This document shows positions 14,253 through 32,285 of a stretch of 64,000 nucleotides of DNA, piece by piece. The stretch comes from Algoriphagus chordae. Its GTDB lineage: Bacteria; Bacteroidota; Bacteroidia; Cytophagales; Cyclobacteriaceae. Position numbers and translations under genes: made by a program. The stretch spans positions 88,593 through 152,592 of the forward strand of contig NZ_QKZT01000010.1 in the NCBI RefSeq assembly GCF_003254055.1, written 5' to 3'. The notes under the pieces are model-generated. The model was not told the origin of the DNA. It did no database searches and saw only the letters and a program-made list of their open reading frames with translations. Numbering within the stretch: position 1 is the stretch's first letter; each line of letters starts with the position of its first letter.

Positions 14253-15029
14253 ATGCTCCCCAAACAAAGAAAAGAAAAAATACTTGAGCTATTAAAAGAA
14301 GATGGTTCAGCTAAGGTGAATGATTTGGCACGCATCTTCAAAGTAACAGAAGTCACGATTCGACAAGACTTAGAAAAACTGGAAAAAAATGGTTTAGTAA
14401 TAAGGGAACATGGCGGAGTACATTTAAAAGATGTCGAAGATAAGGTCCGAAACTTCTCATTGGTACACCAAGAGAACCTCAAAGAAAAAGAAATCATTGC
14501 AGAAAAATGCCTTGAATTCATCCAACCCGGTGACACCATCATTCTAGATTCTGGATCTACCACTACAGAGATCGCCAAAAAGATTGTAAACATCAAAGGG
14601 CTCACAGTTATCACCAACGCTCTGAATATTGCACTTATGCTAGGCGCTAATCCCAATATTGACATCATCATGACAGGGGGAGAATTCAAAGCACCTACGC
14701 TTTCATTGACAGGACAGAAGGCTGCGGATTTCTTCAAAGGTCTAAACGTCCAAAAACTCTTTCTTGCAACAGCCGGGATTTCTTTAAAATCAGGACTTAC
14801 CTATCCTAGTCTTAGTGATCTGGTTGTGAAAAAAGCAATGATTGATGCAGCAGACACCACCTACTTGGTAGCAGACTCTTCCAAAATAGGCAAAAGTGCC
14901 TTTGCTAGCTTGGGTGCTCTGTCTTTGATAGATTATATCATCACAGATGAGGGGGTAGAAAACAAACATAAGGAAGTCTTTAAGGAACACGATATCCAAT
15001 TGATCATCGCAGAAGACACAACTAAATAA
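14253..15029 (+). CDS. DeoR/GlpR-family transcriptional repressor
   Basis: 258 aa. N-terminal winged helix (residues about 4-60: KVNDLARIFKVTEVTIRQDLEKLEKNG, then REHGGV), followed by the DeoR sensor domain with the sugar-phosphate loop DSGSTTTEIAKK (about 94-105). DeoR-family repressors respond to phosphorylated sugar intermediates, which fits control of the isomerase, transketolase, ABC importer and kinase genes that follow on the same strand. The isomerase gene begins 28 bp after its stop codon. Confidence 0.92.
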   Translation: MLPKQRKEKILELLKEDGSAKVNDLARIFKVTEVTIRQDLEKLEKNGLVIREHGGVHLKDVEDKVRNFSLVHQENLKEKEIIAEKCLEFIQPGDTIILDSGSTTTEIAKKIVNIKGLTVITNALNIALMLGANPNIDIIMTGGEFKAPTLSLTGQKAADFFKGLNVQKLFLATAGISLKSGLTYPSLSDLVVKKAMIDAADTTYLVADSSKIGKSAFASLGALSLIDYIITDEGVENKHKEVFKEHDIQLIIAEDTTK

Positions 15030-15057
15030 AACGCAGAAAACAGCTATAGCACAAGGA

Positions 15058-16473
15058 ATGAAAAAGCAAAACATAACTTTAGGGATAATCATCGGAAACA
15101 GAGATTTTTTTCCGGACAAACTGGTATCAGAAGCACGGATAGAAGTTCTTAAAATGCTGGGTGAACAGGGAATTAGAGCCATTATTCTGGATGAGACAGC
15201 CACTAAATTGGGTGGAGTAGAAACCTATACCGATGCAAGAAAATGTGCAGACCTATTCAAGAAACATAAAGATGATATAGCTGGAGTTTTGGTCGTCCTT
15301 CCAAATTTCGGAGATGAAAGAGGCATAGCTGACACGCTCCACCTAGCCGACCTGAAAGTACCTGTACTGATACAAGGCTACCCTGATGAACTCAATAAGC
15401 TTAATGTAGCAAATCGCCGAGATTCTTGGTGTGGCAAGATTTCCGTTTGTAACAACCTCTATCAATACGGCATCAAATACTCAATCACTACCAAACACGT
15501 AGTCCACCCTACAGACCCTTCGTTTTTGGCAGATCTAAAGCAATTTTTGGGTGTATGCCGTGTAGTGAAAGGAATGAAAAATGTGCGTATCGGTGCAATT
15601 GGAGCAAGACCAACTGCCTTTAATACCGTACGATACAGCGAAAAAATCCTGCAAAAAAATGGCATCTCTGTAGTTACCTGCGACCTGTCTGAGATCCTAG
15701 GATATGCAAATAAATTGGACAAATCTGATCAGCGCGTAAAGGACCATTTGGAGAAAATCCACAACTACGCGTCCACAGGAAAAACTCCTAGCGAGTCTCT
15801 GATCCAAATGGCCAAGCTTGATGTAGTATTGAATGATTTCATGACCGAAAATCAACTTGATGCAAATGCCATTCAGTGTTGGACTTCTTTGCAGCAAAAT
15901 TTTGGATGTAATGTCTGCACCAGCTCCAGCATGTTCAGCGAGGGAATGATCCCTAGCGCCTGCGAAGTGGATGTCACAGGAACGCTCAGTATGTATGCCA
16001 TGCAATTGGCTTCAGGCTCCCCGAGTGCATTAGTGGATTGGAACAATAACTACGCTGATGATGATGAAAAATGTGTGCTTTTCCACTGTGGAAACTGGGC
16101 AAAATCATTTCTGCCAGACATTGAAATCAGCAATGCTCCCATCCTAGGAACAACTGTGGGAGTAGAAAACACCTACGGAGCTTTGGATGGACGTACTCCT
16201 GCTTCCCCATTGACTTTCGGTAGAATCAGCACGGACGATACCCGAGGAATCATGAAAGCCTATGTCGGAGATGGTCAATTGACGGATGATGAATTGAAAA
16301 CATTCGGAAACCGAGCAGTAGCCAAAATCCCTAATCTTCAAGGTTTGATGAAACACATCTGCAAAAATGGCTTTGAGCATCATGTAGTTATGAATGCATC
16401 ACATACATCCGAAGCACTTAAGGAAGCATTTGAAAATTACATGGGATGGGAAGTTTACCATCACGAAGGATAA
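15058..16473 (+). CDS. L-fucose/L-arabinose isomerase-family sugar isomerase
   Basis: 471 aa, shorter than FucI. The C-terminal half shows the FucI/AraA metal-site pattern: CEVDVTG (Glu303) and LVDWNNNY (Asp327) with the later FHCGNW and HHVVMNASH histidines. The family interconverts aldoses and ketoses with Mn2+. By context (FGGY kinase, split transketolase, ABC importer and a GH140 enzyme in the same run) it is a candidate aldose-to-ketose isomerase for D-apiose to D-apulose; this is inference. A sulfoquinovose isomerase role (SqvD-like, with a split transketolase) is the main alternative, but the other genes of that route are absent here. Confidence 0.82.
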   Translation: MKKQNITLGIIIGNRDFFPDKLVSEARIEVLKMLGEQGIRAIILDETATKLGGVETYTDARKCADLFKKHKDDIAGVLVVLPNFGDERGIADTLHLADLKVPVLIQGYPDELNKLNVANRRDSWCGKISVCNNLYQYGIKYSITTKHVVHPTDPSFLADLKQFLGVCRVVKGMKNVRIGAIGARPTAFNTVRYSEKILQKNGISVVTCDLSEILGYANKLDKSDQRVKDHLEKIHNYASTGKTPSESLIQMAKLDVVLNDFMTENQLDANAIQCWTSLQQNFGCNVCTSSSMFSEGMIPSACEVDVTGTLSMYAMQLASGSPSALVDWNNNYADDDEKCVLFHCGNWAKSFLPDIEISNAPILGTTVGVENTYGALDGRTPASPLTFGRISTDDTRGIMKAYVGDGQLTDDELKTFGNRAVAKIPNLQGLMKHICKNGFEHHVVMNASHTSEALKEAFENYMGWEVYHHEG

Positions 16474-16520
16474 AACACATTAGATCAACTAACCTAATTG
16501 TTGAAAAAAATCACTTAAAG

Positions 16521-17345
16521 ATGACAGATAAAGAATTGAAACTGAAGTCTGTATTTCTGAGAAAAAACCTTCTCAAATACATTTATAAAGCAAAGGCGGG
16601 ACATACGGGAGGAAGCCTTTCATGTGTGGACATTCTCAATGTACTCTATAACAGAGTGCTTAATGTAGATCCAAGCAATTTCAAAAACCCTAACCGTGAT
16701 CGCTATATCCAAAGTAAAGGACATTGTGTAGAAGCCCTTTTTGTGACCTTGTCGGATCGCGGTTTTTTTCCAGAATCTGATCTGGAAACTCTATGTCAAT
16801 ACCAATCCCACTACATCGGGCATCCCACCAAAAAGGTGAATGGTGTAGAGCAAAATACCGGTGCACTGGGACATGGTCTTCCTATCTGCGTGGGAGAAGC
16901 TATTGCAGCGAAACTGGATAAAAAAGAGCATAGAATATTTACGCTTCTAGGAGATGGGGAATTGCCTGAAGGCTCAAACTGGGAAGCATTTCTATCCGCT
17001 TCTCATTACAAGCTGGATAATTTATATGCCATTCTGGACAACAACAAGCAGCAAATTACTGGGTCCAATCAAGAAGTAATGAACACAGATTCCCTACGGG
17101 ATAAATTGGAAGCTTTTGGCTGGTCGGTCCGGGAAGTAGATGGACATAATCTCGCCGATCTGGATGAGGCTTTGAATAATGGGCCTTTCGAAGCTGGTAA
17201 GCCCAATTTTATAATTGCCCATACCATTAAAGGTAAAGGAATCAGCTACATGGAACGTGTACTAAAATGGCACCATGGTGTACCAAGCCCAGAGCAGTAC
17301 GACTTGGCATTATCAGAATTAGACGCGACTGAAGCATTAATCTAG
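16521..17345 (+). CDS. Transketolase N-terminal (TPP-binding) subunit
   Basis: 274 aa from ATG at 16521; an in-frame ATG at 16446 overlaps the isomerase gene and is less likely. It covers only the pyrophosphate-binding half of transketolase: the AGHTGGSLSC start, the GHCVEALFV segment, and the TPP/Mg motif GDGELPEG followed by NNK (about 144-172). The C-terminal half is encoded 6 bp downstream, so the active site forms between two polypeptides. Split transketolases of this kind occur in special sugar routes, including apulose-4-phosphate transketolase (EC 2.2.1.13). Confidence 0.9.
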   Translation: MTDKELKLKSVFLRKNLLKYIYKAKAGHTGGSLSCVDILNVLYNRVLNVDPSNFKNPNRDRYIQSKGHCVEALFVTLSDRGFFPESDLETLCQYQSHYIGHPTKKVNGVEQNTGALGHGLPICVGEAIAAKLDKKEHRIFTLLGDGELPEGSNWEAFLSASHYKLDNLYAILDNNKQQITGSNQEVMNTDSLRDKLEAFGWSVREVDGHNLADLDEALNNGPFEAGKPNFIIAHTIKGKGISYMERVLKWHHGVPSPEQYDLALSELDATEALI

Positions 17346-17351
17346 CAAATC

Positions 17352-18320
17352 ATGGAATTAGATAAAATCGTAGAGAAAGACCTGAAAATGGGAAGCGCAA
17401 ATCAGGAGATTTTCGCTAAAACTTTGGAATCATTGGCTGCCACAGATAAATCGATCATCGTGGTGACAAGTGACTCTCGAGGTTCAGGAAAACTTGTACC
17501 CTTCGGTCAAAAATTCCCGGAGCAGATTGTAGAAGTTGGGATAGCAGAACAAAATCTCGTTGGAGTAGCCGCGGGCTTAGCATCTGCAGGAAAGAAATCA
17601 TTTGCCATTTCTCCGGCTTGCTTTCTTACTGCACGGGCTTTGGAACAGATCAAAAACGACGTAGCCTATTCCGACAACCCAGTCAAACTGGTAGGAATCA
17701 GTGCTGGAGTAAGTTACGGGGCACTTGGAACTACTCACCATAGTCTTCATGACTTTGCCGTGCTTCGAGCGATCAATAATATGATCATTGTCGCACCGGC
17801 AGACAATTTCGAAACTGAACAAGCTGTGCTATTGGCAGCGAAGCTAGAGCAACCGATTTATCTCCGATTTGGTAAAAAACCCATGCCTTTTCTATCTGAA
17901 GAAAACCAAGAGTTTGAATTTGGAAAAGGAAGAATAATAAGGAAAGGAAATAATCTCACCATCATCGCAAACGGTGAGACGGTCTATCCTGCTTGGCAGG
18001 CTGCAAAAGCTTTAGAAGAAAAGCATGGAGTCTCTGCCAAAGTAATAAGTATGCATACGATCAAACCACTTGACACAGCACTATTGGATGAATTGGCTGC
18101 TGAAGGCAAACCGATTATCACGGTGGAAGAGCAGATGGTAAACGGAGGTTTGGGCGAAGCCTGCGCTTCCTACCTTTTCCAAAAAGGAGCCAGAAACCGA
18201 TTCCATATCATCGGAATACCAGATGAATACACCGTAACAGGTTCACAGGGAGAAATCTTCAATCACTACGGCATATCCCGAGATGGTATTTTGGCGCAGG
18301 CCGAAACACTTCTGAAATAA
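17352..18320 (+). CDS. Transketolase C-terminal subunit
   Basis: 322 aa covering the pyrimidine-binding domain (with EVGIAEQN; Glu66 is the expected cofactor-activating Glu) and the C-terminal transketolase domain ([11 protein letters not shown] and [13 protein letters not shown]). It follows the N-terminal subunit by 6 bp and the two must work as a pair. If the apiose assignment holds, the pair would convert apulose 4-phosphate plus glyceraldehyde 3-phosphate to DHAP and xylulose 5-phosphate. Confidence 0.9.
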
Positions 18321-18336
18321 CAACAACCCACCCAAA

Positions 18337-19296
18337 ATGACCTATTTCAAACCCATAAAAATTCTATGCCTGCTCCTCTTCACCGCTATATTATTCAGCT
18401 GCCAAAAGCAGAAGTCTGAAAAGCAGGGTCAGCCTAAAAAAGTGGCCGTAATCGTATCCTCACTCAATAACCCATGGTTTGTAGTGCTGGCAGAGACTGC
18501 TGCCAACCATGCCATAGAGCTAGGATTTGAGGCTACTATTTTTGATTCCCAAAATAATACCGCACTGGAGACAGATCACTTTGAAAATGCCATCTCTTCA
18601 GGCTACGACGCTATACTTTTCAATCCCACAGATGCGGATGGCTCGATCGCAAATGTGAGGATAGCCAAAAAGGCTGAAATCCCTGTATTCTGCATGGATC
18701 GTGAGATCAACGCTACGGACGCAGCAACCAGTCAAATCCTCTCAGACAGCTATGCGGGATGCGTAGCTATAGGCAAATACTTCGTGGAGAAGCTGAATAA
18801 AAGTGGAAAGTATGTAGAAATCTTAGGCTTGGTCGGAGACAATAATACCTGGAGTCGCTCCAAAGGGTTTCACTCTGTAGTCGATAACTATCCTGAGCTG
18901 CAGATGGTCGCTCAGCAAAATGCTGACTTTGACAGAAACAAAGCCATGGAAGTAATGGAATCTATTTTACAGGTACATCCAGATATCAAGGGAGTCTTTT
19001 GTGGCAATGACGGCATGGCCATGGGAGCTTACCAGGCTTTGGTGGCTGCAGGAAAAGCAGAGCAAGTCATGGTTTTTGGCTTTGACGGAGCAAGCGATGT
19101 GATCACCTCCATCGAGCAGAAAAAAATCCTAGCTACCGGAATGCAATTCCCAAAGCTAATCGCTAGAACAGCCGCCAACTACGCATTGGAGTACTTCAAT
19201 GGCAAACGGGATTTCGCACAAAAAGTCCCTGTGACTGTAGAAATGGTCAATCAAGAAAATGTACATGATTACGAAGCCTACGGAAGTGATGAATAA
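18337..19296 (+). CDS. Sugar ABC transporter substrate-binding lipoprotein (RbsB-like)
   Basis: 319 aa. Signal peptide with lipobox LFSC (Cys22), then a Peripla_BP_4-type two-lobed binding protein ([54 protein letters not shown]). This class binds pentoses and related monosaccharides. It overlaps the next gene by 8 bp and forms the binding component of the importer encoded by the following three genes. ABC sugar importers are unusual beside a SusCD system, which suggests that a free monosaccharide is the transported species. Confidence 0.92.
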
Positions 19297-19912
19297 TAAA
19301 GCTATAAAATATGGCATTGGAGTAGTTGCATTAGCTCTTGTGGGTTACAATTCAATCTATATCCAGCCCCTAGACCAAAAACTGGCAGAAAATCAGCAAA
19401 CGGTTTTCAATGCGAAGGCCTATGTGGATGGCATCTGGAATCAGGATCTCGCAAAGGCTTACCAAGATTGCACTGATATTTTGCAACTAATAGACAGTTT
19501 CAATCAGGACGTTAACAGCACATTTGAGAAAAATAGTCATGCCTTAGGTATTGGCAATATTGGCTATTTCCGCGTGAAAGGAGAAGGCATAGTCATCGCT
19601 GTAAATGAAAACAATGTGCTGCTTCAAGTAGGCAGTTCTAGAATAGAAATTGAAACGGAATTCATTTTTGGAAATGCCCTCCGTGATGCTTCAGGATTGG
19701 TCAAAATCAACGATTACGAAGACACTGCGGATTTCAACAGCATCTCTGAGGCAATGAATGACAGGATTCGCCAAGAAGTAATACCAAGCTTTAGATCCAA
19801 AGTGAAAGAGGGAGATTCAGTGAAGTTTGAAGGAGCTATAGAACTCAACAAAGTTCATTTGAATCTAGATCAACTTGAGGTTATTCCATTTACTCTCCAA
19901 ATCTCCTCATAG
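19289..19912 (+). CDS. DUF2291 family exported protein of a sugar ABC operon
   Basis: 207 aa from the ATG at 19289, which overlaps the preceding stop by 8 bp; an in-frame ATG at 19259 lies deeper in the upstream gene. One N-terminal hydrophobic segment ([20 protein letters not shown]) is followed by a soluble domain. DUF2291 proteins are found next to RbsABC-type importers; their role is unknown, with accessory function in transport assumed. The sandwich between the binding protein and the ATPase genes is the typical arrangement. Confidence 0.8.
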
Positions 19913-19913: not shown

Positions 19914-21434
19914 ATGACGGCACTACTGGAAGTAAAAGAAATAACCAAAAAGTTCTCTGGAGTTACTGCCCTCAGTAATGTCAATCTCCGTCTAGAAGGA
20001 GGAAAAGTAACCGCATTAATCGGTGAAAACGGCGCAGGAAAATCTACCCTCTTGAAAATCATGTCAGGTATTTACACTGATTTTGAGGGACAAATCCTCT
20101 TTAAAGGTCAAGAAATTAAATTCTCCAAACCTAAGGACGCACAGGAAATGGGAATTGGAATTATTCACCAAGAGTTAAATCTGATTCCTTACCTGACAGT
20201 AGCTCAAAACATTTTTTTGGGAAGAGAATTAGTCAATGCATTTGGCTTTTTGGATCGGGAGAAAATGATCAACAAGACCAAAGCTTTATTAAGCAGACTC
20301 AAACTGGAAGTAGAACCTACAGCCTTGGTAGGCACTTTGAAAGTTGGCCAACAGCAAATCGTAGAAATCGCCAAAGCCCTGCTCACAGAATCTGAGGTAG
20401 TTTTTATGGATGAGCCTACTTCAGCCATCGGGGAAAGCGAAGTGGAAGTCCTCTTCGAAATCATCAATAAACTAAAAGCAGAGGGTAAAGCCATTGTCTA
20501 TATCTCGCACAAACTGGATGAGCTTTTTGCCTTAGCAGATGATTTTGTAGTGCTACGGGATGGGAAAGTGGTCGGTCAAGGTGGAGTATCAGAAATATCC
20601 CGTGCGCAACTCATCAATATGATGGCAGGGCGTGAAGTGAAAGTGGTCAAAAAACCCACCAAAAACTGTACAGAAGAGAAAGTCTTAGAAGTCAAAAACC
20701 TTGGTTTACTCAATCCTGAAAATCCCCAACGTCCTTTACTAAAAGATATTAGTTTCGATTTATGCAAAGGTGAAGTCCTGGGAGTATATGGATTGATGGG
20801 AGCAGGAAGAACAGAGCTTTGCGAAAGTCTCTTTGGGCTGAACCACCGCAAATTGACAGGCTCTATCCTACTCAATGGCCAGAAAACAGGCTTCAAAAGT
20901 CCCATTGAAGCAATAGATGCGGGTATGGCTCTGGTACCTGAAGACCGCAAAAAAGATGGAATTGTAGCAGGAATGTCGGTTTCAAAAAACCTAAGCCTTA
21001 CCGTGATCGAGAAGGTCAGCAAATTCGGCTTTCTGAGCGATGTGTTACATACCAAACTCTATGACAAACATGTCGCTTCCCTGAAAATCAAAGTTCACAA
21101 CGAGGATCAAGCAATCAAAAATCTGAGTGGCGGAAATCAGCAAAAAGTAATACTAGGAAAGTGGATAGAGCGAAATCCCACCGTGCTCATGCTGGACGAA
21201 CCTACGCGTGGAATAGATATAAATGCCAAAAATGAAATCTATGAGCTTATCGCTCGACTAAGCGCCTCTGGTATTTCCATTCTGGTTATTTCTTCTGAAA
21301 TCCCCGAAATACTGGCTATTTCAGACAGAATATTAGTCATGTCTGAAGGCGAAATCACCGCCGAGTTTTCGAGTGAAGAAGCCACCGAAACTAACATAAT
21401 GAATGCCTGCATCCCTGAAAACATGAATCAATGA
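19914..21434 (+). CDS. Sugar ABC transporter ATP-binding protein (RbsA/MglA-like)
   Basis: 506 aa from ATG at 19914; the frame opens at 19875 inside the previous gene. Two nucleotide-binding domains are fused. Domain 1 has Walker A GENGAGKST (37-45), signature LKVGQQQIVEIAKAL and Walker B VVFMDEPTS. Domain 2 has the degenerate Walker A GLMGAGRTE, signature LSGGNQQKVILGKWI and Walker B VLMLDEPTRGID. This is the standard layout for monosaccharide importers of the ribose/xylose type. The stop codon overlaps the permease start (ATGA). Confidence 0.94.
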   Translation: MTALLEVKEITKKFSGVTALSNVNLRLEGGKVTALIGENGAGKSTLLKIMSGIYTDFEGQILFKGQEIKFSKPKDAQEMGIGIIHQELNLIPYLTVAQNIFLGRELVNAFGFLDREKMINKTKALLSRLKLEVEPTALVGTLKVGQQQIVEIAKALLTESEVVFMDEPTSAIGESEVEVLFEIINKLKAEGKAIVYISHKLDELFALADDFVVLRDGKVVGQGGVSEISRAQLINMMAGREVKVVKKPTKNCTEEKVLEVKNLGLLNPENPQRPLLKDISFDLCKGEVLGVYGLMGAGRTELCESLFGLNHRKLTGSILLNGQKTGFKSPIEAIDAGMALVPEDRKKDGIVAGMSVSKNLSLTVIEKVSKFGFLSDVLHTKLYDKHVASLKIKVHNEDQAIKNLSGGNQQKVILGKWIERNPTVLMLDEPTRGIDINAKNEIYELIARLSASGISILVISSEIPEILAISDRILVMSEGEITAEFSSEEATETNIMNACIPENMNQ

Positions 21435-22405
21435 TCTCTTTGAAGAAAAACTTTAACATAGCCCAGTTTCAGTCCCTTATCGCATTATTCGTCTTATGCT
21501 TGGCTTTGGCATTGCTGACAGACAATTTCATGACTACGGACAATTTTTGGAATGTCATGCGCCAAATCTCTGTGAACGTATGCATCTCAGTGGGAATGAC
21601 TCTGGTTGTTTTAACTGCCGGGATTGACCTTTCTGTAGGTTCTATCTTGGCATTTTGCGGAGCAGTGACGGCAGGTTTATTGAAAAATGGACTCAGCATA
21701 CCCTCATTAAACCTGTTTATTGGATTCACTGTATTAGGCGCAATAGTAGCCGGATTTTTAATCGGCGGAGGCTTAGGATTTGTTAATGGATATGCCGTCA
21801 CCAAATTCAAAGTTCCTCCTTTTGTCGCTACGCTGGCCATGCTTACCATGGCCCGGGGATTCACCATGCTCTGGACAAAAGGCCATCCCATCACAGGCCT
21901 GGGAGATAGTTTCGGTTTCTTAGGCACGGGATGGTTCTTAGGAATACCTATGCCAGTATGGATCTCAGGTCTAGTGGTAATCACAGCAGTTATTCTTACG
22001 AGCAAAACCCGATTTGGAAGATACATCTACGCCATAGGAGGAAATGAAAATGCTTCCCGCCTCTCTGGAATCCCGATTAACAAAGTTAAAATCTGGGTGT
22101 ATTCCATTGCTGGATTGCTTGCAGCCGTTGGTGGGGTGCTGGTAACAGCTCGACTGGATTCCGCCCAGCCAAATGCCGGAATAAGTTATGAATTGGATGC
22201 AATTGCCGCAGTGGTGATCGGTGGTACTTCACTTTCCGGGGGTAGAGGAACAATCTGGGGAACAGTCCTCGGCGCAATCATTATAGGAGTGCTGAACAAT
22301 GGTTTGATTCTCATGAATGTCTCTCCTTTTTGGCAGCAGGTAATCAAAGGGATGGTGATCCTACTAGCTGTCATTATCGACAAATCGAATCAAAAGAGTG
22401 AGTAA
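21431..22405 (+). CDS. Sugar ABC transporter permease (RbsC-like)
   Basis: 324 aa with about ten hydrophobic segments. Family hallmarks are GIDLSVGSILAF, TLAMLTMARG, IYAIGGNENASRLSGI and the loop IGGTSLSGGRGTIWGTVLGA that couples to the ATPase. Its ATG overlaps the TGA of the ATPase gene, indicating translational coupling. It forms the inner-membrane channel of the importer. Confidence 0.94.
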   Translation: MISLKKNFNIAQFQSLIALFVLCLALALLTDNFMTTDNFWNVMRQISVNVCISVGMTLVVLTAGIDLSVGSILAFCGAVTAGLLKNGLSIPSLNLFIGFTVLGAIVAGFLIGGGLGFVNGYAVTKFKVPPFVATLAMLTMARGFTMLWTKGHPITGLGDSFGFLGTGWFLGIPMPVWISGLVVITAVILTSKTRFGRYIYAIGGNENASRLSGIPINKVKIWVYSIAGLLAAVGGVLVTARLDSAQPNAGISYELDAIAAVVIGGTSLSGGRGTIWGTVLGAIIIGVLNNGLILMNVSPFWQQVIKGMVILLAVIIDKSNQKSE

Positions 22406-22456: not shown

Positions 22457-23950
22457 ATGTCTTTCATATTAGCAATAGATCAAGGAACCAGCAGTACCAA
22501 AACCATCATCTTCGATGAGCAGGGGAATGCTGTGCACAAGGAGACAGAACTACTCAAAACCCACTACTTAGAAGGAAACCGTGTGGAGCAAGATCCTGAG
22601 GAGATTTACCAAAACATATTAACCTCTGTTGGTAAATGTCTGGGCGGCTTTGTGTCCAAAAAAGGAGATTTGAGCAAAATTAAAGCCTGTGGTATTTCCA
22701 ATCAGCGGGAGACTTTTGTGCTGTGGGACAAAACAGGAAAACCACTCTATAATGCCATTGTATGGCAGTGCAAGCGTTCTGTAGCTATCTGTGAAAGATT
22801 GGAAAAAGAAGGTTTGGGACCAAAAATCAACGAGAAAACCGGATTGATCATTGACCCTTATTTTTCGGGAACCAAAGTAATCTGGCTCTATGAAAATGAG
22901 ACGAAAATCAAAGAAGCAATCGATCAGGGAGAAGCATATTTTGGAACGATTGACACTTGGTTGCTTTACAAGTTGACCAAAGGTCAATCTTACCTGACTG
23001 ATTATACAAATGCATCCAGAACATTATTTTTCAATCTGAAAGAGCTTTGTTGGGATCAGGAGCTATTGTCAGATTTCGGTTTATCCAAACTGAATTTACC
23101 AGAATTAAAGCCCTCCTCTGTTCATTTTGGTACCACCAATTTGGAAGGCCTATTGGATCATCAAATCAGCATTTCGGCGATGATTGGGGACTCCCATGCG
23201 GCGGCATTTGGGGAAGGTTGTTTTGAACCAGGCAGTGCCAAAGCCACGCTGGGAACGGGTAGTTCAATTCTGATGAATATTGGAAAGAACCCGAAAACTT
23301 CTCAGAATGGAATGGTCACTACTATTTGTTGGAGCACAGAAAATCGAGTGGATTATGCGCTGGAGGGAATAATAGTCTCTGCCGGTGCCACGATAGAATG
23401 GATCAAAAATCAACTGGGTCTCTTTGAAAACGCATCAGATCTGGAGCAAATATGCCTTTCACTTTCCGACAATGGAGGCGTCTATATTGTGCCGGCCTTC
23501 TCGGGATTGGGAGCACCTCATTGGGACATGAATCGCAAAGCAACCATTGAAGGATTGTCTTTCGAATCATCGAAAAACCATGTAATCCGCGCAGCTGTGG
23601 AATCTGTTCCTTACCAGATCAAAGATGTGATCGTCGCCATGGAAGCCGATTCCGGGACGCCACTTACAGAGCTAAAAATAGATGGAGGGATCACTTCAAA
23701 CAAGTTTGTGGTACAGTTCCTAGCTGACATTCTTGAGCGCAAAGTAACCAACATAGCGATTGCCGATGTATCTGCTTTGGGTGCCGCCTATTTGGCAGGC
23801 CTGAACTCCAAAGTCTATAAAAGTATAGATCAACTCAAATCTTTTAACCAAAACTCCATCAGCACTTTACCTGGAGAAAACTCTGTGAAAGTAGCTGGAT
23901 ATTATGAGGGTTGGAAAAAAGTAATTGGCAATAAAAAGACCCAAACCTAA
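22457..23950 (+). CDS. FGGY-family carbohydrate kinase (GlpK-like, altered pocket)
   Basis: 497 aa, full-length two-domain FGGY kinase: DQGTSSTKT at the N-terminus, NQRETF, WQCKR, DPYFSGTK, GDSHAAAFG, and the C-terminal LKIDGGITSNKF and ALGAAYLAGL. It aligns by eye along its whole length with glycerol kinase. Arg84, Glu85, Trp103, Tyr135 and Asp245 are kept. The next pocket residues, Gln246 and Phe270 of GlpK, are Ser246 and Ser270 here. That argues for a substrate larger than glycerol. In the context of isomerase and split transketolase genes, a ketopentose such as D-apulose is a fitting substrate (inference). It starts 51 bp after the permease gene. Confidence 0.88.
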   Translation: MSFILAIDQGTSSTKTIIFDEQGNAVHKETELLKTHYLEGNRVEQDPEEIYQNILTSVGKCLGGFVSKKGDLSKIKACGISNQRETFVLWDKTGKPLYNAIVWQCKRSVAICERLEKEGLGPKINEKTGLIIDPYFSGTKVIWLYENETKIKEAIDQGEAYFGTIDTWLLYKLTKGQSYLTDYTNASRTLFFNLKELCWDQELLSDFGLSKLNLPELKPSSVHFGTTNLEGLLDHQISISAMIGDSHAAAFGEGCFEPGSAKATLGTGSSILMNIGKNPKTSQNGMVTTICWSTENRVDYALEGIIVSAGATIEWIKNQLGLFENASDLEQICLSLSDNGGVYIVPAFSGLGAPHWDMNRKATIEGLSFESSKNHVIRAAVESVPYQIKDVIVAMEADSGTPLTELKIDGGITSNKFVVQFLADILERKVTNIAIADVSALGAAYLAGLNSKVYKSIDQLKSFNQNSISTLPGENSVKVAGYYEGWKKVIGNKKTQT

Positions 23951-23961: not shown

Positions 23962-25389
23962 ATGACAAATCTACCCAAAACACCTTTTCTACTTATTGCC
24001 TTACTCCTACTTGGTTTTTCTGAGGGAATGGCTCAAAAAAAGAAATCCGAGAAAACTCGAATTTTGGTCACCAGTGATGGAGAAATAGATGATCAATGTT
24101 CTATAGTGCGTTTCCTGCTTTATGTAAACGAATGGGATGTAGAAGGAATAATCACCTCGAGTTCCCAATATCACTGGCAAGGGCACAAATGGCCTGGTGA
24201 TGATTGGATTGATCCTTATTTGGATGCCTACGCCAAAGATTATCCAAATCTGGTCAAGCATGATCCGGATTTTCCGAGCCCAGAATTTTTACGCGAAAGA
24301 ACGCTCTTAGGCAACGTGAAAACCGAAGGTGAAATGACTGAAGTCACACCCGGTTCAGAGCTTATAGTAAAGGTTTTGTTGGATGAAACAGATGATCGTC
24401 CTATTTGGATTCAAGCTTGGGGCGGGACAAATACAATAGCCAGAGCTTTGAAAACCATCGAAGAAAGCTATCCTGACAAAATGGAATATGTTGCCAATAA
24501 GATGCGTCTGTATTTGATCTGGGAGCAGGATGTGACTTATCAGGAATACATTCGTCCGAATTGGGGGAAATATAATATTCCGACCATCATCGCGGATCAG
24601 TTTGAGGCGATTGCCTATCGATGGGCTCAGGTGCAACCTCCAGAAATGCTACCCTATTTTGAAGGTCCATGGATGAAAGCCAATATTCTTGAAAATCACG
24701 GTGCTTTAGCTGCACTTTATCCCGCTATGGAAAACGGTGATTTCCGCTCTGAAGGGGATTCCCCAGCTTTTTTACATACCATTCCTACAGGCTTGAGAAG
24801 TTTGGAATCACCAATGTATGGAGGTTGGGGAGGGAGATTTGTAAAGGTCCGTGACAATACCTGGTTGGATTCAGTGCCTGTCTCTGGCTATGAGTATCCA
24901 GAAGGCAGATGGTACGGAAGCAATGGTTGGGGAAGAACAAGTTTACGTGAAGGTTCCAAGTCTACTGCGGAACAGCGCAGCACTTATTTCAAACCTATGT
25001 GGCGCTGGTCTGATGCGATGCAGAATGACTTTGCCGCTCGGGCAGACTGGAGCGTAAAGTCCTACACTGACGCAAATCATCCTCCATTCGTCCACACCAA
25101 AAGCAAGCTGAATCAGAGTGCCAAACCTGGTGACACTATCAAACTAAGTGTAGCTGGCAGCAAAGATCCAGACGGAGATAAACTCAGCTACCATTGGTAT
25201 GTTCATACTGAGCCCAGCACTCTCGCAAATGCTGGCGAACAGGTAAAATTGACAGGCGCTGATCAAGCACAATCTTCTTTTAAAGTACCTCAAGGAACTG
25301 GAACCATTCATTTAATCTGTGCAGTGACTGATAACGGTAGTCCAGCACTGACGCGATATACCCGTGTGATAGTAACAGTGAAACCTTAA
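23962..25389 (+). CDS. Exported Sde182-type nucleoside-hydrolase-like protein (paralogue C)
   Basis: 475 aa, with a signal peptide ending GMAQ. The signature is TSDGEIDDQCS (Asp39, Asp43, Asp44) in place of DxGxDPDD. EGDSPAFLH is the conserved second motif, followed by GGWGGRFVKV. AANAD-type NDFAARADW and the C-terminal SKDPDGDKLSYHW sandwich complete the protein. Placement 11 bp after the sugar kinase gene ties it to the monosaccharide pathway. It pairs with the next gene as a recent duplicate. Reaction unknown; a glycosidase acting on furanosides is inferred from the fold family. Confidence 0.83.
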   Translation: MTNLPKTPFLLIALLLLGFSEGMAQKKKSEKTRILVTSDGEIDDQCSIVRFLLYVNEWDVEGIITSSSQYHWQGHKWPGDDWIDPYLDAYAKDYPNLVKHDPDFPSPEFLRERTLLGNVKTEGEMTEVTPGSELIVKVLLDETDDRPIWIQAWGGTNTIARALKTIEESYPDKMEYVANKMRLYLIWEQDVTYQEYIRPNWGKYNIPTIIADQFEAIAYRWAQVQPPEMLPYFEGPWMKANILENHGALAALYPAMENGDFRSEGDSPAFLHTIPTGLRSLESPMYGGWGGRFVKVRDNTWLDSVPVSGYEYPEGRWYGSNGWGRTSLREGSKSTAEQRSTYFKPMWRWSDAMQNDFAARADWSVKSYTDANHPPFVHTKSKLNQSAKPGDTIKLSVAGSKDPDGDKLSYHWYVHTEPSTLANAGEQVKLTGADQAQSSFKVPQGTGTIHLICAVTDNGSPALTRYTRVIVTVKP

Positions 25390-25430: not shown

Positions 25431-26876
25431 ATGAACCTACTTAACCATTTCCCTAAATCCATACTAATAGCTATTCTAATTAGCAGTTTAGGTTCTGATC
25501 TCATTGCTCAGGAAAAGACAGTAAAACCACGAGTCATCGTAACGAGTGATGGGGAAATAGATGATGAATGCTCTTTGGTTCGGTTTCTTCTATATGCCAA
25601 TGAATGGGATATTGAGGGAATCATAACTTCAAGTTCCCAGTACCACTGGCATGGCCACAGATGGGCTGGAGATGACTGGGCTGTCCCCTACTTGGATGCT
25701 TACGCCAAGGTGCAGCCCAATTTACTCAAGCATGACAAAGATTATCCCACAGCAGAATTTCTCAGATCTAGAACCTTTCTAGGCAATGTAGAGACAGAAG
25801 GTGAAATGGAAAAAATCACAGACGGCTCTCAGCATATTGTAAAAGTATTGTTGGATGAATCTGACGCAAGACCAATCTGGATACAGGCTTGGGGTGGGAC
25901 AAATACTATTGCTCGAGCATTGAAAACTATAGAGGAAGATCATCCCGAAAAAATGGATGCCGTAGCTAGTAAAATCCGATTCTATTTCATCTGGGAACAA
26001 GACGATACTTTTCAGAAATACATTCGTCCAGTCTGGGGGAAATACAATATCCCAACAATCATCTCAGATCAGTTTATTGCCATTTTCTATCATTGGAAAA
26101 AGTATTTGCCAGAAGCTGAGCAGAAATACCTTGCTGCAGATTGGATGAATGAAAATATCCTGGAAGCACATGGCCCACTTTTGTCAATGTACCCTGCCCA
26201 TGAAGAAGGTGACAAGGGATTTGACAAGGGAGATTTTAGATCTGAAGGAGATTCTCCAGCTTTTTTACACGCGATACCTACAGGCTTGCGCAGCATGGAA
26301 TCTCCAGACTATGGAGGCTGGGGAGGTAGATATGTGAAAGTCCGAGAAAATACTTGGCTAGACCCGGTGTTGGACTCCTCTTATACTTATCCTGAAGGCA
26401 GATGGTATGGAAACTCAGCTTGGGGAAGAGAACGACTCAAAGAAGAAATTCCCAACGATCAAGAACTCACAGACTATCTCGAACCACTCTGGCGCTGGAC
26501 TGCTGCTATGCAAAATGATTTTGCAGCACGTGCAGACTGGACTATCAAGTCCTATGATGAAGCCAATCATGAGCCGATCGTTAAACTGGCTCACGAGGAA
26601 GACCTGCTACTAAAACCAGGATCAAATGTAAAACTTAGCGCAGCGGGATCATACGACCCAGACGGAGATAACCTTAGCTACAGCTGGTGGCAGTATCAAG
26701 ATCCAGGAACTTACACAGGAGAGGTTTCTATAAATCAGTCAAAAGAGCAAAACGCAAACTTAACAGTACCAAAAGATGCCAAACCTGGGCAAACAATACA
26801 TGTGATCTGTGAAGTCACGGACAATGGAAGCCCAGCTTTGACTAGGTATAGACGAGTGATTATTACAATAAAATGA
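25431..26876 (+). CDS. Exported Sde182-type nucleoside-hydrolase-like protein (paralogue D)
   Basis: 481 aa. The signal peptide ends DLIAQ. TSDGEIDDECS (Asp40, Asp44, Asp45), SSSQYHWHGHRW and EGDSPAFLH match paralogue C closely, and the C-terminal domain contains SYDPDGDNLSYSWW and ends SPALTRYRRVIITIK. Compared with C, an insertion (HEEGDKGFDKGDF) sits just before the EGDSPAF motif. A gap of 41 bp separates it from C, so the pair is probably cotranscribed. Confidence 0.83.
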   Translation: MNLLNHFPKSILIAILISSLGSDLIAQEKTVKPRVIVTSDGEIDDECSLVRFLLYANEWDIEGIITSSSQYHWHGHRWAGDDWAVPYLDAYAKVQPNLLKHDKDYPTAEFLRSRTFLGNVETEGEMEKITDGSQHIVKVLLDESDARPIWIQAWGGTNTIARALKTIEEDHPEKMDAVASKIRFYFIWEQDDTFQKYIRPVWGKYNIPTIISDQFIAIFYHWKKYLPEAEQKYLAADWMNENILEAHGPLLSMYPAHEEGDKGFDKGDFRSEGDSPAFLHAIPTGLRSMESPDYGGWGGRYVKVRENTWLDPVLDSSYTYPEGRWYGNSAWGRERLKEEIPNDQELTDYLEPLWRWTAAMQNDFAARADWTIKSYDEANHEPIVKLAHEEDLLLKPGSNVKLSAAGSYDPDGDNLSYSWWQYQDPGTYTGEVSINQSKEQNANLTVPKDAKPGQTIHVICEVTDNGSPALTRYRRVIITIK

Positions 26877-26971: not shown

Positions 26972-28450
26972 ATGAAAAAACAGATAATTTTTACGCTAGT
27001 CCTACTTCTATCTTCGGTAAATATTTTTGCCCAAGCACCATGGGATAGCCATGGCAAACTCCAGGTTGCTTCAAACGGGCACTACATAGAACACAAAGAC
27101 GGCACACCATTTCTTTGGATAGGCGATACGGGGTGGGGTTTGTTTCAGCAACTTACCCGAGAAGAAGTAGATCAATACTTGGACAATCGGCAGGAGACGG
27201 GCTTCAATGTCATCCAATCTGTGGCGTTCTGGTATCCTCACGGAGGTGGGTTAAAAAATGGCCCCCATAATGCTGCAAATGCTTACGGTCATCGTCCATT
27301 CACCGGTGGAGAAGACAACCCCAACACTGCGAAACCGCTAGTTGAGTCTGGGGGATCTCCTGACGCACCAAACGATTATTGGGATCATGTAGACTATATC
27401 ATCGAGGGGATCAAAAAAAGAAATATGTATGTAGCCCTCCTCCCAAACTGGGGACGAGCCTATATCACAGATCAATTTAGTGGTGCTCATCAAGAGTTTA
27501 CAGCGCAGGAGGCTAAAGAATACGGTGTTTTTTTAGGAAAAAGATATAAGACAGAACCTCACATACTGTGGGTTCTGGGTGGAGATGCGAAAGGAAAATA
27601 TTTTGCAGTTTCAGATACGATCTCAGAAAAAAATGTGGACAGACGTTCCATTTTCCGGGCAATGGCAGAAGGGATAGCCAATGGGGTCACTGGCAAAACA
27701 GTTCAATGGAACAAAGCTGATCAAGCATGGAAGGACGTTTTTTTCACTTATCACCCTGATGGGGATCCTAGTGACAACTCATCCACTTGGTTTCATGAAG
27801 ATGCTTGGATCACAGCCAATGGGGTGGAAGTATGGACACAGGTCAATGAAGTATATCCAACTATGGCAAGAGAATACAATCTGGACAATCCTAAGAAGCC
27901 AAGTCTATTCCTGGAGGGTTCCTACGAATTTGGAGCTTACGGTCAAGAGTGCGGATATATTACTCCTCTACGTTTGCGTCGACAAGTATACCATACATTT
28001 TTTGCTGGAGGAGCTGGTCACACTTATGGAGCAGGCCCTATTTGGGCAATGCGCGGTACTCAAGGGAACTACAATTGTGGCTTTACCTGGGAACAAGCTT
28101 TGAATTTCCCTGGAGCAGTTCAGTTTGCGCAGCTGGCAAAAAACTTACTTATCGAAAATAATTGGTCTGAATGGATTCCTGACCAAAGCATCCTCCAAGG
28201 AACTGAAAGTGACAACGAAAGCCTAAAAGCAGCGGTCAGACTCTCTTCCGGTAAGAAAATTCTGGTCTATTTCTCTGACAATTCAGAGGCAACAGTCAAA
28301 AACATCCTGGATAAAGACGCCGAAGCAAATTGGTTTGATCCGATGGAAGGGCGTGAAAGTACGGCTGAATCATTCCAAACTGGTGAATCTCGAATAATCA
28401 CGCCACCAACAGGTTGGGAGGACGCAATCCTCATTCTAACATCAAACTAA
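26972..28450 (+). CDS. GH140-family (DUF4038) apiosidase-like glycoside hydrolase
   Basis: 492 aa. The signal peptide ends NIFAQ. The catalytic TIM barrel of the DUF4038/apiosidase-like family begins HYIEHKDGTPFLWIGDTGWG and includes DNRQETGFNVIQ. The acid/base and nucleophile candidates are Asp205 in WVLGGDAKG and Glu315 in LFLEGSYEFG. The C-terminal sandwich (KKILVYFSDNSE, WFDPMEGRE) matches the small domain usually attached to DUF4038. The founding GH140 member removes apiose-linked side chains from RG-II. Here it lies among four Sde182-type genes, downstream of a kinase and split transketolase. Confidence 0.87.
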   Translation: MKKQIIFTLVLLLSSVNIFAQAPWDSHGKLQVASNGHYIEHKDGTPFLWIGDTGWGLFQQLTREEVDQYLDNRQETGFNVIQSVAFWYPHGGGLKNGPHNAANAYGHRPFTGGEDNPNTAKPLVESGGSPDAPNDYWDHVDYIIEGIKKRNMYVALLPNWGRAYITDQFSGAHQEFTAQEAKEYGVFLGKRYKTEPHILWVLGGDAKGKYFAVSDTISEKNVDRRSIFRAMAEGIANGVTGKTVQWNKADQAWKDVFFTYHPDGDPSDNSSTWFHEDAWITANGVEVWTQVNEVYPTMAREYNLDNPKKPSLFLEGSYEFGAYGQECGYITPLRLRRQVYHTFFAGGAGHTYGAGPIWAMRGTQGNYNCGFTWEQALNFPGAVQFAQLAKNLLIENNWSEWIPDQSILQGTESDNESLKAAVRLSSGKKILVYFSDNSEATVKNILDKDAEANWFDPMEGRESTAESFQTGESRIITPPTGWEDAILILTSN

Positions 28451-28480: not shown

Positions 28481-29911
28481 ATGAAGAAGTATTTTAGATA
28501 TTGGACGATTTTAGTCGGAATCCTACTCCACGGACAAGTCGATCTATTTGCCCAAAGCAGCACAGAAAAAGAACGAATCATCGTCCTGACAGATATCGAA
28601 AATGAACCAGACGATGCGATGTCCTTGGTCCGCTTTCTCACCTACTCCAATCAATGGGATGTAGAAGGACTTGTGGCCACTACTTCCATTCATCAACGGG
28701 ATACTATAGCAACCTGGAGAATATTTGAAATCCTGGATGCATACGGCAAAGTGCGAGACAACTTAGAAAAACATGAGCAAGGCTACCCTACCGCTGAATA
28801 CCTCAAAACAATCGTGAAAGAAGGGATTCCAAAGTATGGTATGGAAGCTGTAGGCGAAGGAATGGACTCGGAAGGTTCAGAGCTGATCATTAGTACAGTA
28901 GATAAAGAGGATGAGCGGCCTGTTTGGGTTCTTGTATGGGGCGGGCCAAATTGTCTTGCCCAAGCACTATGGAAAATCAAAGAAACCAGAAGTTCTGAAG
29001 ACCTAGCAAAATTCGTATCGAAACTGCGGGTCTACACGATATCCGACCAAGACAATAGTGGCCATTGGCTTAGAAAGACCTTCCCAAACCTGTTTTATAT
29101 AGCCAGCCCTGGGGTACACGAATTGGGAGGATACCATTTTGCAACTTGGTCTGGCATCAGCGGAGATAAGTTCCACGGAAGATTTGCCGGAGGAAATTTT
29201 GAAATTGTCGACAACCCTTGGCTTGACGAGCATATTCGAAATAAAGGACCATTAGGAAAAGAATATCCTCATATGGAATTCCTCATGGAGGGAGATTCTC
29301 CAAGTTTTATGCACTTGATCCATACCGGCATGGAAAATCCTGAGCGACCAGACTACGGAAACTGGGGAGGTCGCTATGAATTTTACCTACCAAAAACAGA
29401 GAGTTGGTTTTCGGAACCGGAAACACGTGCACTTTGGACAGATACCATGGACGAAGTATATGGTGCAGATGGGAATTGGCATACGACGAATAAAGCAACA
29501 ATTTGGCGCTGGAGAGAGGCTTACCAAAATGATTTCGAAGCTAGAATGGACTGGACAATCAAGGAATACAAGGATGCAAATCATCCACCAGTAGTCAAAC
29601 TCAAAACTCCAGAATTCATATTGGCAAAAGTTGGAGATAGAATCGAGCTAAGTGCCGATGAGAGCAGCGATCCTGATGGTGACGGTTTAAACTACCACTG
29701 GTTTTTCTATGGAGAACCTGGAGAGTACACGCTAGCGAGCGGGCGAACTGCTACTCCCTTAAAAATTGAAAATGCAGATACGGCAAATGCGTTCTTCATA
29801 GTTCCTAAGCCTGGAAAATTTGGAGAAATGCACCTTATTCTGGCAGTGACTGACCAAGGGTCCCCTGCCCTAACACGATACAAAAGGATAATTGTAAAAG
29901 TACAGCCTTAG
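28481..29911 (+). CDS. Exported Sde182-type nucleoside-hydrolase-like protein (paralogue E)
   Basis: 476 aa. The signal peptide ends DLFAQ. The signature is [12 protein letters not shown] (Asp38, Asp44, Asp45), with a Glu in the usual Gly/Asp stretch. [19 protein letters not shown] and [14 protein letters not shown] are conserved with paralogue A, to which it is most similar. The C-terminal [13 protein letters not shown] sandwich ends [12 protein letters not shown]. It starts 30 bp after the GH140 gene. Confidence 0.83.
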
Positions 29912-30026
29912 TTGAGTATCAGATAAAATTAAACCTATTGAGATTGATCAGCAGTGAGACTTGTACAGGACAAGTACACCATTGTCGACTTGAAGTCAAT
30001 AAACAGTTAACCCAAACCTATTTTAC

Positions 30027-32285
30027 ATGAAGCCTAACCAATTGATTTACTGTGTAACGACAGTTGCACTACTTTTTTGCTCTCCCTATACAACTAGGGC
30101 GGATCAACAGAAAAATGAAAGTAATTCATACAAACCTAGAATAATCAATACCACCGACCTTGGAGCTGATCCAGATGACGAGCAATCTTTAGTTCGTCAG
30201 CTGGTCGCTTCAAATGAATTTGACATTGAAGGGCTAATTGTAGCGACAGGATGCTGGAAGAAAACCCAGGACAATACAGCTATGTTAGATGTGATTTTGG
30301 ATGCCTACGAAGAAGCTTATCCAAACCTGTCTGTTCATGCTGCTGAGTTCCCTACACCTGAATACCTTAAATCCATCGCTGTAATGGGACAAGATGGCTA
30401 TGGTATGAGCGACGTGGGTACAGGAAAGGACAGCCCAGGATCTGAACTCATCATAGCAGCAGCAGACAAGGATGATCCTAGACCTCTTTGGGTAATGGGA
30501 TGGGGCGGAATGAATAACATTGCTCAAGCTATCTGGAAGGTTCGAGAAACACGTAGCCCAGCAGAATTGAAGAAGTTTTTGTCAAAGCTAAGATTGTATG
30601 ATGTCTTAGGACAAGACGATGCTGGTGCTTGGATTGCCAAAAACTTCCCGGATGTATTCTATATTCGAGCAACTGGAGTCTATGGATGGCAGCCTTCTAA
30701 GGAACATTTTGCTGAAAATATCCAAAGCCATGGCCCACTAGGCAGCGTCTATCCAGATACTAAATGGGCAACAGAAGGAGACACGCCTGCATTTATGCAT
30801 GTCTATCCCAATGGGCTCAATGACCCAGAGCAGATTGATCAAGGTGGCTGGGGAGGTCGTTTCAGTTTCACCAAAAAAGCTGGGATTCGAAGTATGTCAG
30901 AAGTTCCTAAAATTCAGGAAGACGGAGAAACACAATATGACCCTTACTTGATGTATGGAAATACAGATGAAAAAGCCGAAGCCATCAAAAAATGGAACAA
31001 AGGATATAACAATGATTTTGCGGCACGGATGGACTGGAGTATTAGCAGCAAATATGAAGATGCTAACCACCATCCCACAGCCATACTCAATGGAGATAAA
31101 TCTCGAAAGGTGCTGAGGATGTCCGCTTCTTCAGGAGAAAAAATCACATTGAGTGCTGAAGGCTCGAGTGATCCTGACGGAGATGCTTTGACCTATAATT
31201 GGTCTTATTATGACGAACCAAGTTCTTATAATGGTACTGTAGAAATTCACACTAGCACTTCATCCCAAGCGACCGTCCAGATACCTAAGGATGCTGCGGG
31301 AAAAACAATTCATGTGATCCTGGAGGTCTATGACGACGGGGAGCCTAATTTATATGTCTACAGAAGGATGATAATCGAGGTAACAGGTTCGGCTACTGCT
31401 GAAATCCTAGAACCGCTTGCAGGTAGTCCTTATACTCCTTTTCCAGAGTCGGTGGTGGTGACTAAAGTTCGCCATTTCGACAACATGTGTTGGAAAATCG
31501 CCGCAGCAGGTGGCACTTGGTATTTTGAAAATGGTGAGACCGATGGTAAAACAGGTTTTAGTAGTGCTTTTGACCAGGCAGGAAACGACTGGATAGGCAA
31601 TGATGCCGATCGAGGATACAACAAGTCCTCCAATATAGGTGGTAAACATGAATACCGGGGCTGGCCAAATTTCGGCGAGGGAAACTTTAATCATCCACAG
31701 CGTAAAAGCAACTCCAACTCTTGGTGGGTGGATAAAAATGGAAAGCAAATAGCTTTTGAAGACAGCCTTTCTGGTGATCACCTGATTATGAGAAGCTCCA
31801 ATCCTTCCTATGAACTGGAGTACCATTTTTTTCCATCTCATGCAACAATCAAGATCATCAGAGCTGATGACAAGTATGCATTTCTGTTTGAAGGACCAGT
31901 TGGGGGAGAACAAGAAACGTCGGTCGACAAAGACTATTACGTATTAAAAGATGGCATACACCGAGAGATCAAATCAGGTGGTCTAGGTTACTTAGAGCCT
32001 GAATTTGGAAATAAATTCCCCTCTCCATTTTTCTACCTAGCAGACAGCGATCCAAAGGACAAGCAAGTATTCTATGCCGGTGTTCGTGACGTAGGACCAA
32101 TTACGGCAGGTGATGAAGGATGGAGACAGGGAGAAAATATGGTGATTTTCAGTTTTGGAAGAGATGAGGACAAGCGTGCATACACCGGCACTGAGGCTAT
32201 ATGTGTATTTGGGTTTGCTGAAAAAACGGAACACAAGGAAATCAGCAGTTTTATCGAGTCAAAAATTAAATCTCCTTTCAAATAG
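30027..32285 (+). CDS. Sde182-type protein with extra C-terminal domain (paralogue F)
   Basis: 752 aa, about 270 aa longer than its relatives. The signal peptide is followed by TTDLGADPDDEQS (Asp44, 48, 50, 51), EGDTPAFMH and the SSDPDGDALTYNW sandwich to about residue 455. The additional region (about 460-752; Trp-rich, with CWKIAAAGGTWYFENGETDG, SNSWWVDKNGK and ELEYHFFPSHATIKI) looks like a beta-rich module with an aromatic surface, perhaps a carbohydrate-binding or second catalytic domain. I do not recognise its family. A 115-bp gap with no clear terminator separates it from paralogue E. Confidence 0.82.
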   Translation: MKPNQLIYCVTTVALLFCSPYTTRADQQKNESNSYKPRIINTTDLGADPDDEQSLVRQLVASNEFDIEGLIVATGCWKKTQDNTAMLDVILDAYEEAYPNLSVHAAEFPTPEYLKSIAVMGQDGYGMSDVGTGKDSPGSELIIAAADKDDPRPLWVMGWGGMNNIAQAIWKVRETRSPAELKKFLSKLRLYDVLGQDDAGAWIAKNFPDVFYIRATGVYGWQPSKEHFAENIQSHGPLGSVYPDTKWATEGDTPAFMHVYPNGLNDPEQIDQGGWGGRFSFTKKAGIRSMSEVPKIQEDGETQYDPYLMYGNTDEKAEAIKKWNKGYNNDFAARMDWSISSKYEDANHHPTAILNGDKSRKVLRMSASSGEKITLSAEGSSDPDGDALTYNWSYYDEPSSYNGTVEIHTSTSSQATVQIPKDAAGKTIHVILEVYDDGEPNLYVYRRMIIEVTGSATAEILEPLAGSPYTPFPESVVVTKVRHFDNMCWKIAAAGGTWYFENGETDGKTGFSSAFDQAGNDWIGNDADRGYNKSSNIGGKHEYRGWPNFGEGNFNHPQRKSNSNSWWVDKNGKQIAFEDSLSGDHLIMRSSNPSYELEYHFFPSHATIKIIRADDKYAFLFEGPVGGEQETSVDKDYYVLKDGIHREIKSGGLGYLEPEFGNKFPSPFFYLADSDPKDKQVFYAGVRDVGPITAGDEGWRQGENMVIFSFGRDEDKRAYTGTEAICVFGFAEKTEHKEISSFIESKIKSPFK

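Follow-up and report, generated by a model that had tools for sequence, protein, structure and literature searches.

A probable D-apiose utilization operon of the transketolase kind within a pectin locus of Algoriphagus chordae

The operon and its conservation

The window analysed here, a stretch of 64,000 nucleotides from Algoriphagus chordae (C10:88593-152592; host genome size 5.19 Mb), carries at 14253-32285 a single co-directional run of genes that very probably constitutes an operon for D-apiose utilization of the published transketolase kind, situated within a locus for pectin, namely for the side chains of rhamnogalacturonan II (RG-II). The gene set itself is real and conserved. Its assignment to D-apiose, put forward already in a first-pass annotation made from the letters alone, is the best-supported reading, because the isomerase is orthologous to that of enterobacterial apiose clusters, the transketolase and the kinase share traits with their counterparts there, and GH140-type and RG-II enzymes adjoin.

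All the genes named in that annotation are present as open frames at their sites, in the given order and with fitting domains (DeoR, Fucose_iso_C, Transketolase_N, Transket_pyr + C, Peripla_BP_4, ABC_tran, BPD_transp_2, FGGY and Apiosidase PF13204). They lie on the plus strand and comprise a DeoR-family regulator (14253..15029; PF00455 and PF08220 above the cut-off), a FucI/AraA-type isomerase proposed to act on D-apiose (15058..16473; PF02952, 104 bits), the AptA-like N-terminal (16521..17345; PF00456) and AptB-like C-terminal (17352..18320; PF02779 and PF02780) subunits of a transketolase, a periplasmic sugar-binding protein of the RbsB type (18337..19296; PF13407), the ATPase (19914..21434; PF00005) and the permease (21431..22405; PF02653; 353 bits with the ribose permease model, the cut-off of 398 being missed) of a sugar ATP-binding cassette (ABC) importer, a GlpK-like FGGY kinase as the proposed apulose kinase (22457..23950; PF00370/PF02782) and a GH140-type apiosidase-like enzyme (26972..28450). 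The annotation had passed over the DUF2291 lipoprotein (19289..19912, plus strand; PF10054, 162 bits), an aceric acid hydrolase at 4170-6221 and six PF07632 genes, four of them inside the interval. The intergenic gaps range from -8 to 115 bp with the start codons as chosen; those of the genes at 16521, 19289 and 19914 were picked by position and overlap, each gene being shorter than its longest open reading frame (ORF; from 16446, 19259 and 19875, respectively).

In the published transketolase route, apiose is converted via apulose to apulose 4-phosphate and then to xylulose 5-phosphate and dihydroxyacetone phosphate. Judging from gene content, gene order, grouping in trees and residue signatures, apiose would be freed from apiosides outside the cytoplasm by the GH140-type enzyme, possibly aided by the PF07632 proteins, and the sugar would enter via the RbsB-like binding protein and the ABC importer together with DUF2291. 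The FucI-type isomerase would then form apulose and the GlpK-like kinase apulose 4-phosphate, from which the two-subunit transketolase would pass a two-carbon unit to glyceraldehyde 3-phosphate, with xylulose 5-phosphate and dihydroxyacetone phosphate as products; the DeoR-family protein would regulate the whole set.

A contig scan with the isomerase yielded at least 574 relatives in at least 590 matched stretches, paralogs possibly included, and the best 80 of these relatives define the 80 loci referred to below. It should be noted that they are not independent, since they were chosen by likeness to the window and include several species of one genus. Gene presence was taken from tblastn, ATG-only ORF calls having made the C-terminal transketolase subunit look short in 12 loci. 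The isomerase was found in all 80 loci, each of the two transketolase subunits, kept together with it, in 78, the binding protein in 71, DUF2291 in 70, the ATPase in 69, the kinase in 65, the permease in 64 and the DeoR-family regulator in 58, many of the absences falling at contig or flank ends. Six or more core genes are seen on the plus strand in 68 loci, and in 67 of these the core gene order is identical; the operon thus goes far beyond chance. In four loci (L012, L014, L029 and L080) the isomerase, transketolase and kinase genes stay clustered with no importer between them. A conservation scan of 58 genomes, i.e. the host and 57 relatives, gave any match in five of them, the three strong ones being the host, G017 and G039.

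The isomerase, 98% identical to the copy of Algoriphagus yeomjeoni and encoded by the only PF02952 gene of the genome, shares 52-53% identity with the isomerases of clusters on plasmid records of Rahnella, Sodalis and Klebsiella, which consist of a binding protein, DUF2291, ATPase, permease, regulator, transketolase pair, isomerase and kinase. In the evolutionary tree, the enterobacterial-cluster isomerases and those of the Bacteroidota operons occupy one side of a 100/100 split, the other side being formed by Bacteroidota paralogs of about 50% identity, Listeria and Monoglobus, with the long-branch warning of the program applying to other rows. The isomerases of the Listeria and Monoglobus clusters are of the FucI type, albeit more distant (25-27% identity). 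Residues E303, D327 and H441/H442, which we take by analogy with FucI to be the metal site, are kept in all 14 aligned isomerases, Listeria and Monoglobus included. The idea that a FucI-type isomerase in this role might be a new variant was not borne out, because the Rahnella, Sodalis and Klebsiella clusters, with their AptA-like transketolase, already hold an ortholog and the Listeria and Monoglobus clusters hold FucI-type enzymes. That the enterobacterial-cluster isomerase is the published ApsI we infer from gene content and not from a named sequence.

Concerning the transketolase, its N-terminal subunit is 47% identical to the subunit of the reference cluster from E. coli SE15 (L004)—in which two oxidoreductases replace the isomerase—compared with 35% to the other split transketolase of the host genome, the respective values for the C-terminal subunit being 40% and 34%. 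Compared with the E. coli cluster transketolase, the cluster AptA from Rahnella, Sodalis and Klebsiella reaches 78-79% identity. These identities, together with the tree of N-terminal subunits, identify a dedicated two-subunit transketolase. E. coli strains carrying the cluster grow on D-apiose and K-12 does not, according to the available part of a report that also names the MetaCyc pathway PWY-8089 (PMC13001218). In Spirosoma-type operons, represented by six loci (L070, 14987-16024, and relatives), a PF01156 nucleoside-hydrolase-family protein lies between the transketolase genes.

The kinase is 39.7% identical to that of the E. coli cluster and scores 566.8 bits with the GlpK subfamily model (cut-off 498), under the equivalog cut-off of 590, versus 62.6 bits as a ribulokinase; the E. 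coli cluster kinase is GlpK-like, its scores of 495 and 490 missing both cut-offs. The GlpK residue F270 is replaced by serine in all 65 Bacteroidota operon kinases and in the eight other cluster kinases read, from E. coli, Rahnella, Sodalis, Klebsiella, Listeria, Monoglobus, Rhizobium and Shinella, and a separate GlpK paralog elsewhere in the host genome keeps the phenylalanine. As a residue mark, the substitution sets the operon kinases apart from the host's glycerol kinase, and it may be of use in correcting labels such as 'ribose', 'glycerol kinase' and 'fucose isomerase'. The clusters of E. coli (L004), Rhizobium and Shinella (L109, L112) contain short-chain dehydrogenases and no annotated isomerase; those of Rhizobium and Shinella, with F270S in their kinases, may represent an oxidoreductase type of apiose cluster.

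Pectin-related surroundings and the PF07632 proteins

The GH140-type gene, assigned in the first-pass annotation to the family of the RG-II apiosidase, does match PF13204 with about 252-253 bits (cut-off 26.5) and is the only PF13204 gene of the genome. Its residues D205, E315 and E319, presumably catalytic, align with five GH140-like proteins from other loci, and E315 and E319 also occur in the GH140-like protein of Listeria, with the D column shifted. Among solved structures it matches 8t9w, entitled 'Apiosidase' (161 bits), and 3kzs/5msy (150 bits), which we take to be BT1012. The latter is a beta-apiosidase of RG-II, as stated in the available part of PMC7939467. The protein is a candidate apiosidase-like enzyme, its activity being predicted from sequence.

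Three separate gene neighbourhoods also point to apiose. In the Chitinophagaceae locus L080, the isomerase, transketolase and kinase genes are flanked on one side by PL2670-like, DUF6298, MFS, GH140-like, GH43-like and BT_1020-like genes and on the other by MGH1-like, GH2 and rhamnosidase genes. The Listeria cluster has a core of isomerase, two transketolase genes and kinase, followed by a phosphotransferase system gene and, at the cluster end, a PF13204 gene, and in Monoglobus a DUF5060-PF13204 gene directly follows the kinase.

Upstream of the operon, a SusC-type outer-membrane porin (9347..12364, called by eye as the open frame adjoining SusD) and a SusD-type binding protein (12386..14023; PF07980 and PF14322) lie on the plus strand. 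The minus strand carries the GH127 aceric acid hydrolase (4170..6221), an RG-II marker with 1096.5 bits in the equivalog model NF049879 (cut-off 950) and the genome's only such gene at E 1e-50; aceric acid is not known outside RG-II. GH127 genes are found in four of the 80 neighbourhoods, above the cut-off in L014 and L051, as a 487-residue piece of 816 bits in L010, and in L073. Since no match to a BT_1020-like protein was obtained in the host genome at E 0.001, a full RG-II system is not claimed. Of the adjoining pectate lyases reported in the first pass, both genes are indeed pectate-lyase-like (2670..4058 and 6294..7727, minus strand), the former matching PDB entry 9buj 'Pectate lyase' with 207 bits, but their 167 and 138 bits stay under the PelZ cut-off of 840 and neither has a Pfam pectate-lyase match.

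The four PF07632 genes inside the interval, all on the plus strand, encode a nucleoside-hydrolase-like protein with a hydrophobic N-terminus (23962..25389), a second such protein (25431..26876), a protein with close relatives within the operon in other genera (28481..29911) and one with an additional C-terminal part (30027..32285); the first, second and fourth also match PF21027. The remaining two lie on the minus strand, at 1020..2483 and, fused to DUF5060, at 7728..9077. All are recognised by profile matches, PF07632 scoring above the cut-off, and the metal-binding aspartates D38, D44, D45 and D272 are present in 55 of 55 sequences. PF07632 genes occur near the operon in 38/80 loci and inside it in 21/80, in three subtypes at three positions. 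Within the literature searched, their link to the operon appears to be unreported; the searches found no known reaction for PF07632 and no publication joining apiose with a nucleoside hydrolase.

We tentatively propose, as a possibility somewhat short of an even chance, that the operon-linked PF07632 proteins are metal-dependent furanosidases that act on plant glycans to liberate apiose or another cis-diol furanose, and thus a second, unrelated apiosidase family. If they are apiosidases, this would explain why PF07632 accompanies 38/80 loci and GH140-like genes only 7/80; if they are furanosidases, it would explain why a prototype thought to bind a furanose splits no nucleoside. The inactivity of that prototype on nucleosides, documented in the available part of PMC8910321, also fits the rival view that the PF07632 genes simply travel with loci for plant polysaccharides and have no part in apiose release, a view which comes close to an even chance. 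The same view is favoured by the presence of PF07632 in 19 of 242 genomes that lack the isomerase ortholog, by the distance between the two genes (PF07632 lies within 10 kb of the isomerase in only one of four sample genomes with a strict ortholog) and by the plasmid records, no isomerase or transketolase being annotated near the PF07632 gene in the five records inspected of the eight matched. It is opposed by the repeated insertion into the operon mentioned above and by co-occurrence, PF07632 being present in 4/4 genomes with a strict isomerase ortholog versus 19/242 lacking it (p 5.9e-5; host G000 excluded from the co-occurrence tests). These strict counts replace first Fisher tests (PF07632 in 6/11 versus 17/235 genomes, p 1.2e-4; PF13204 in 5/11 versus 23/235, p 0.004), now superseded, which counted seven genomes whose isomerase of about 50% identity is another paralog. 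With apiose, the PF07632 family gains a directly testable candidate substrate.

Other readings of the pathway

Several findings weigh against the assignment to D-apiose. GH140-like genes occur in only seven of the 80 neighbourhoods (six with a single-sequence profile, seven with a wider one), and the window copy, with 253 bits, is outscored by 25 of the 34 further PF13204 matches obtained in the Bacteroidota sample. Although three of the four sample genomes with a strict isomerase ortholog have PF13204, in none of them does it lie less than 10 kb from the isomerase, one of the contigs ending early, and PF07632 is also found away from the operon. No relative named 'D-apiose isomerase' was present among the 120 of 7999 matches listed, the names being partly cut. 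Around the isomerase paralogs of about 50% identity, ten scanned proteins comprised five SSF symporters, two FGGY kinases, one class II aldolase and two oxidoreductases, and no split transketolase pair was seen. A transketolase near such an isomerase is nevertheless not unique to the operon, since for two of the seven paralogs (L117 and L118) the same 20 kb also contain a full-length, 682-residue ORF resembling a transketolase (13649-15694 and 13815-15860, respectively; 34% identical to the N-terminal subunit), with an SSF symporter adjoining in L118; the contrast with the paralogs therefore concerns the split pair and not any transketolase. As the ORF caller missed the isomerase in L117, L118, L120 and L121, the neighbours there are placed only within the same 20 kb.

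The kinase tree, too, counts against the assignment, placing the Bacteroidota kinases nearer to GlpK and in no single clade with the enterobacterial ones, so that the shared serine at F270 may be convergent. An order of steps in which the transketolase acts on unphosphorylated apulose to release dihydroxyacetone, which the GlpK-like kinase then phosphorylates, would give the same net result. This swapped order is unlikely: the window kinase does retain the GlpK residues R83, E84, W103, Y135 and D245 and exceeds the GlpK subfamily cut-off, but F270 is lost in all operon kinases, and in the published route the apulose kinase acts first.

The remaining contrary findings concern the importer and a ribose operon of T. 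maritima. The best PDB match of the binding protein is the ribose-binding protein 2fn8 (360 bits), presumably from T. maritima, and the pocket is of the ribose type in all 70 Bacteroidota copies read; two of the pocket sites, N and F in these copies, are occupied by D and W in the binding proteins of the Rahnella, Sodalis and Klebsiella clusters. The alignment shows D and W there also in R. etli 5ibq, which we take to have been solved with apiose, as 4ry0 presumably was with ribose. Some binding proteins accept both apiose and ribose. As far as the available part of PMC3750489 goes, a similar gene set of T. maritima, with a transketolase and two predicted D-arabinose enzymes, is called a ribose operon and is up 14- to 92-fold on ribose versus glucose, almost equally on xylose. 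The ribose-type pocket and the T. maritima operon together make a role in ribose uptake possible.

A step further, the whole set could be a D-ribose or D-arabinose operon, in which ribose or arabinose would come in through the importer, be isomerised to D-ribulose and then be phosphorylated by the kinase to D-ribulose 5-phosphate, while the transketolase would merely boost the pentose phosphate pathway. The pocket, the match to 2fn8 and the way in which the T. maritima operon is described and induced agree with it, as does the isomerase model, whose best fold matches are L-arabinose and then L-fucose isomerases, with D-arabinose isomerase also matched. It is nonetheless improbable, given a kinase of the GlpK subfamily and not of the ribulokinase type, the pairing of both transketolase subunits with the isomerase in 78/80 loci and their distinctness from the genome's other split copy, and the GH140-type and RG-II enzymes alongside. 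In addition, no PfkB ribokinase was found in the 80 + 11 loci with one query at E 1e-5, by which a distant one could be missed.

A sulfosugar pathway, suggested by sulfoquinovose isomerase as the closest named isomerase model, was rejected as having a negligible probability: the SftI match reaches 94 bits against a cut-off of 700, similarly low scores of 104-117 bits are obtained for the cluster isomerases of Rahnella, Listeria and Monoglobus, and no sulfosugar gene was identified in the ten operon proteins scanned.

Further genes of the window and comparison with known systems

A promoter scan gave 27 sites versus a shuffle mean of 35.2 and a terminator scan 15 versus 17.9, i.e. no excess in either case. 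Directly after the operon, at 32376-33935 on the plus strand, lies a gene for a 519-residue protein that appears by eye to consist of four repeats of one unit, with no Pfam match below E 0.024 and, at the BLAST setting used, no match to any ORF called in the 80 loci. On the minus strand, at 46511-50613, a GH92 protein (48271-50613) stands beside a 554-residue protein without a family match, close to what looks by eye like a second SusCD-like pair. A mannitol/arabinitol-type dehydrogenase, a 440-residue protein (no Pfam match; transporter-like by eye) and a PfkB kinase follow in a row at 58992-62768 on the plus strand, as a separate sugar-alcohol set.

Concerning known systems, the PF07632 proteins of the window share the fold and the metal ligands of Sde_0182 and the nucleoside hydrolases (PF07632, IUNH fold), from which they differ in their C-terminal PF21027 domain and in their surroundings, where no gene for nucleoside use was seen. 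With the RG-II loci of Bacteroides (BT1012 apiosidase) the window has in common a GH140-type enzyme, an aceric acid hydrolase and SusCD, whereas the host genome lacks a BT_1020-like protein.

The T. maritima 'ribose' operon, likened here by its description in the available part of PMC3750489, likewise combines an importer, there for ribose, with a transketolase and two predicted sugar enzymes; unlike the window, it has the LacI-family regulator RbsR and a ribokinase. The T. maritima control genome matches PF13204, PF02952 and the aceric acid hydrolase model (two genomes matched in that scan, only one of them above the cut-off), so that apiose might be worth considering as a substrate of its 'ribose' operon.

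The closest counterpart is the D-apiose transketolase pathway (ApsI, ApsK/AplK, AptA/AptB; PWY-8089), with which the window shares the isomerase, in the same FucI-type clade as in the enterobacterial clusters, the GlpK-like FGGY kinase, the two-subunit transketolase, the binding protein, ATPase and permease, as well as DUF2291, which is present in the clusters of E. coli, Rahnella, Sodalis and Klebsiella, too. In contrast to the enterobacterial clusters, the window has a DeoR-family regulator instead of their sugar-binding one, a kinase on another branch, a ribose-type pocket, PF07632 genes and a pectin-locus setting. The operon is thus not new for its isomerase but, within the literature searched, for its tie to PF07632, and with it the known apiose route now reaches many Bacteroidota, in the form of a highly conserved operon (an isomerase relative is encoded in at least 574 stretches, paralogs possible).

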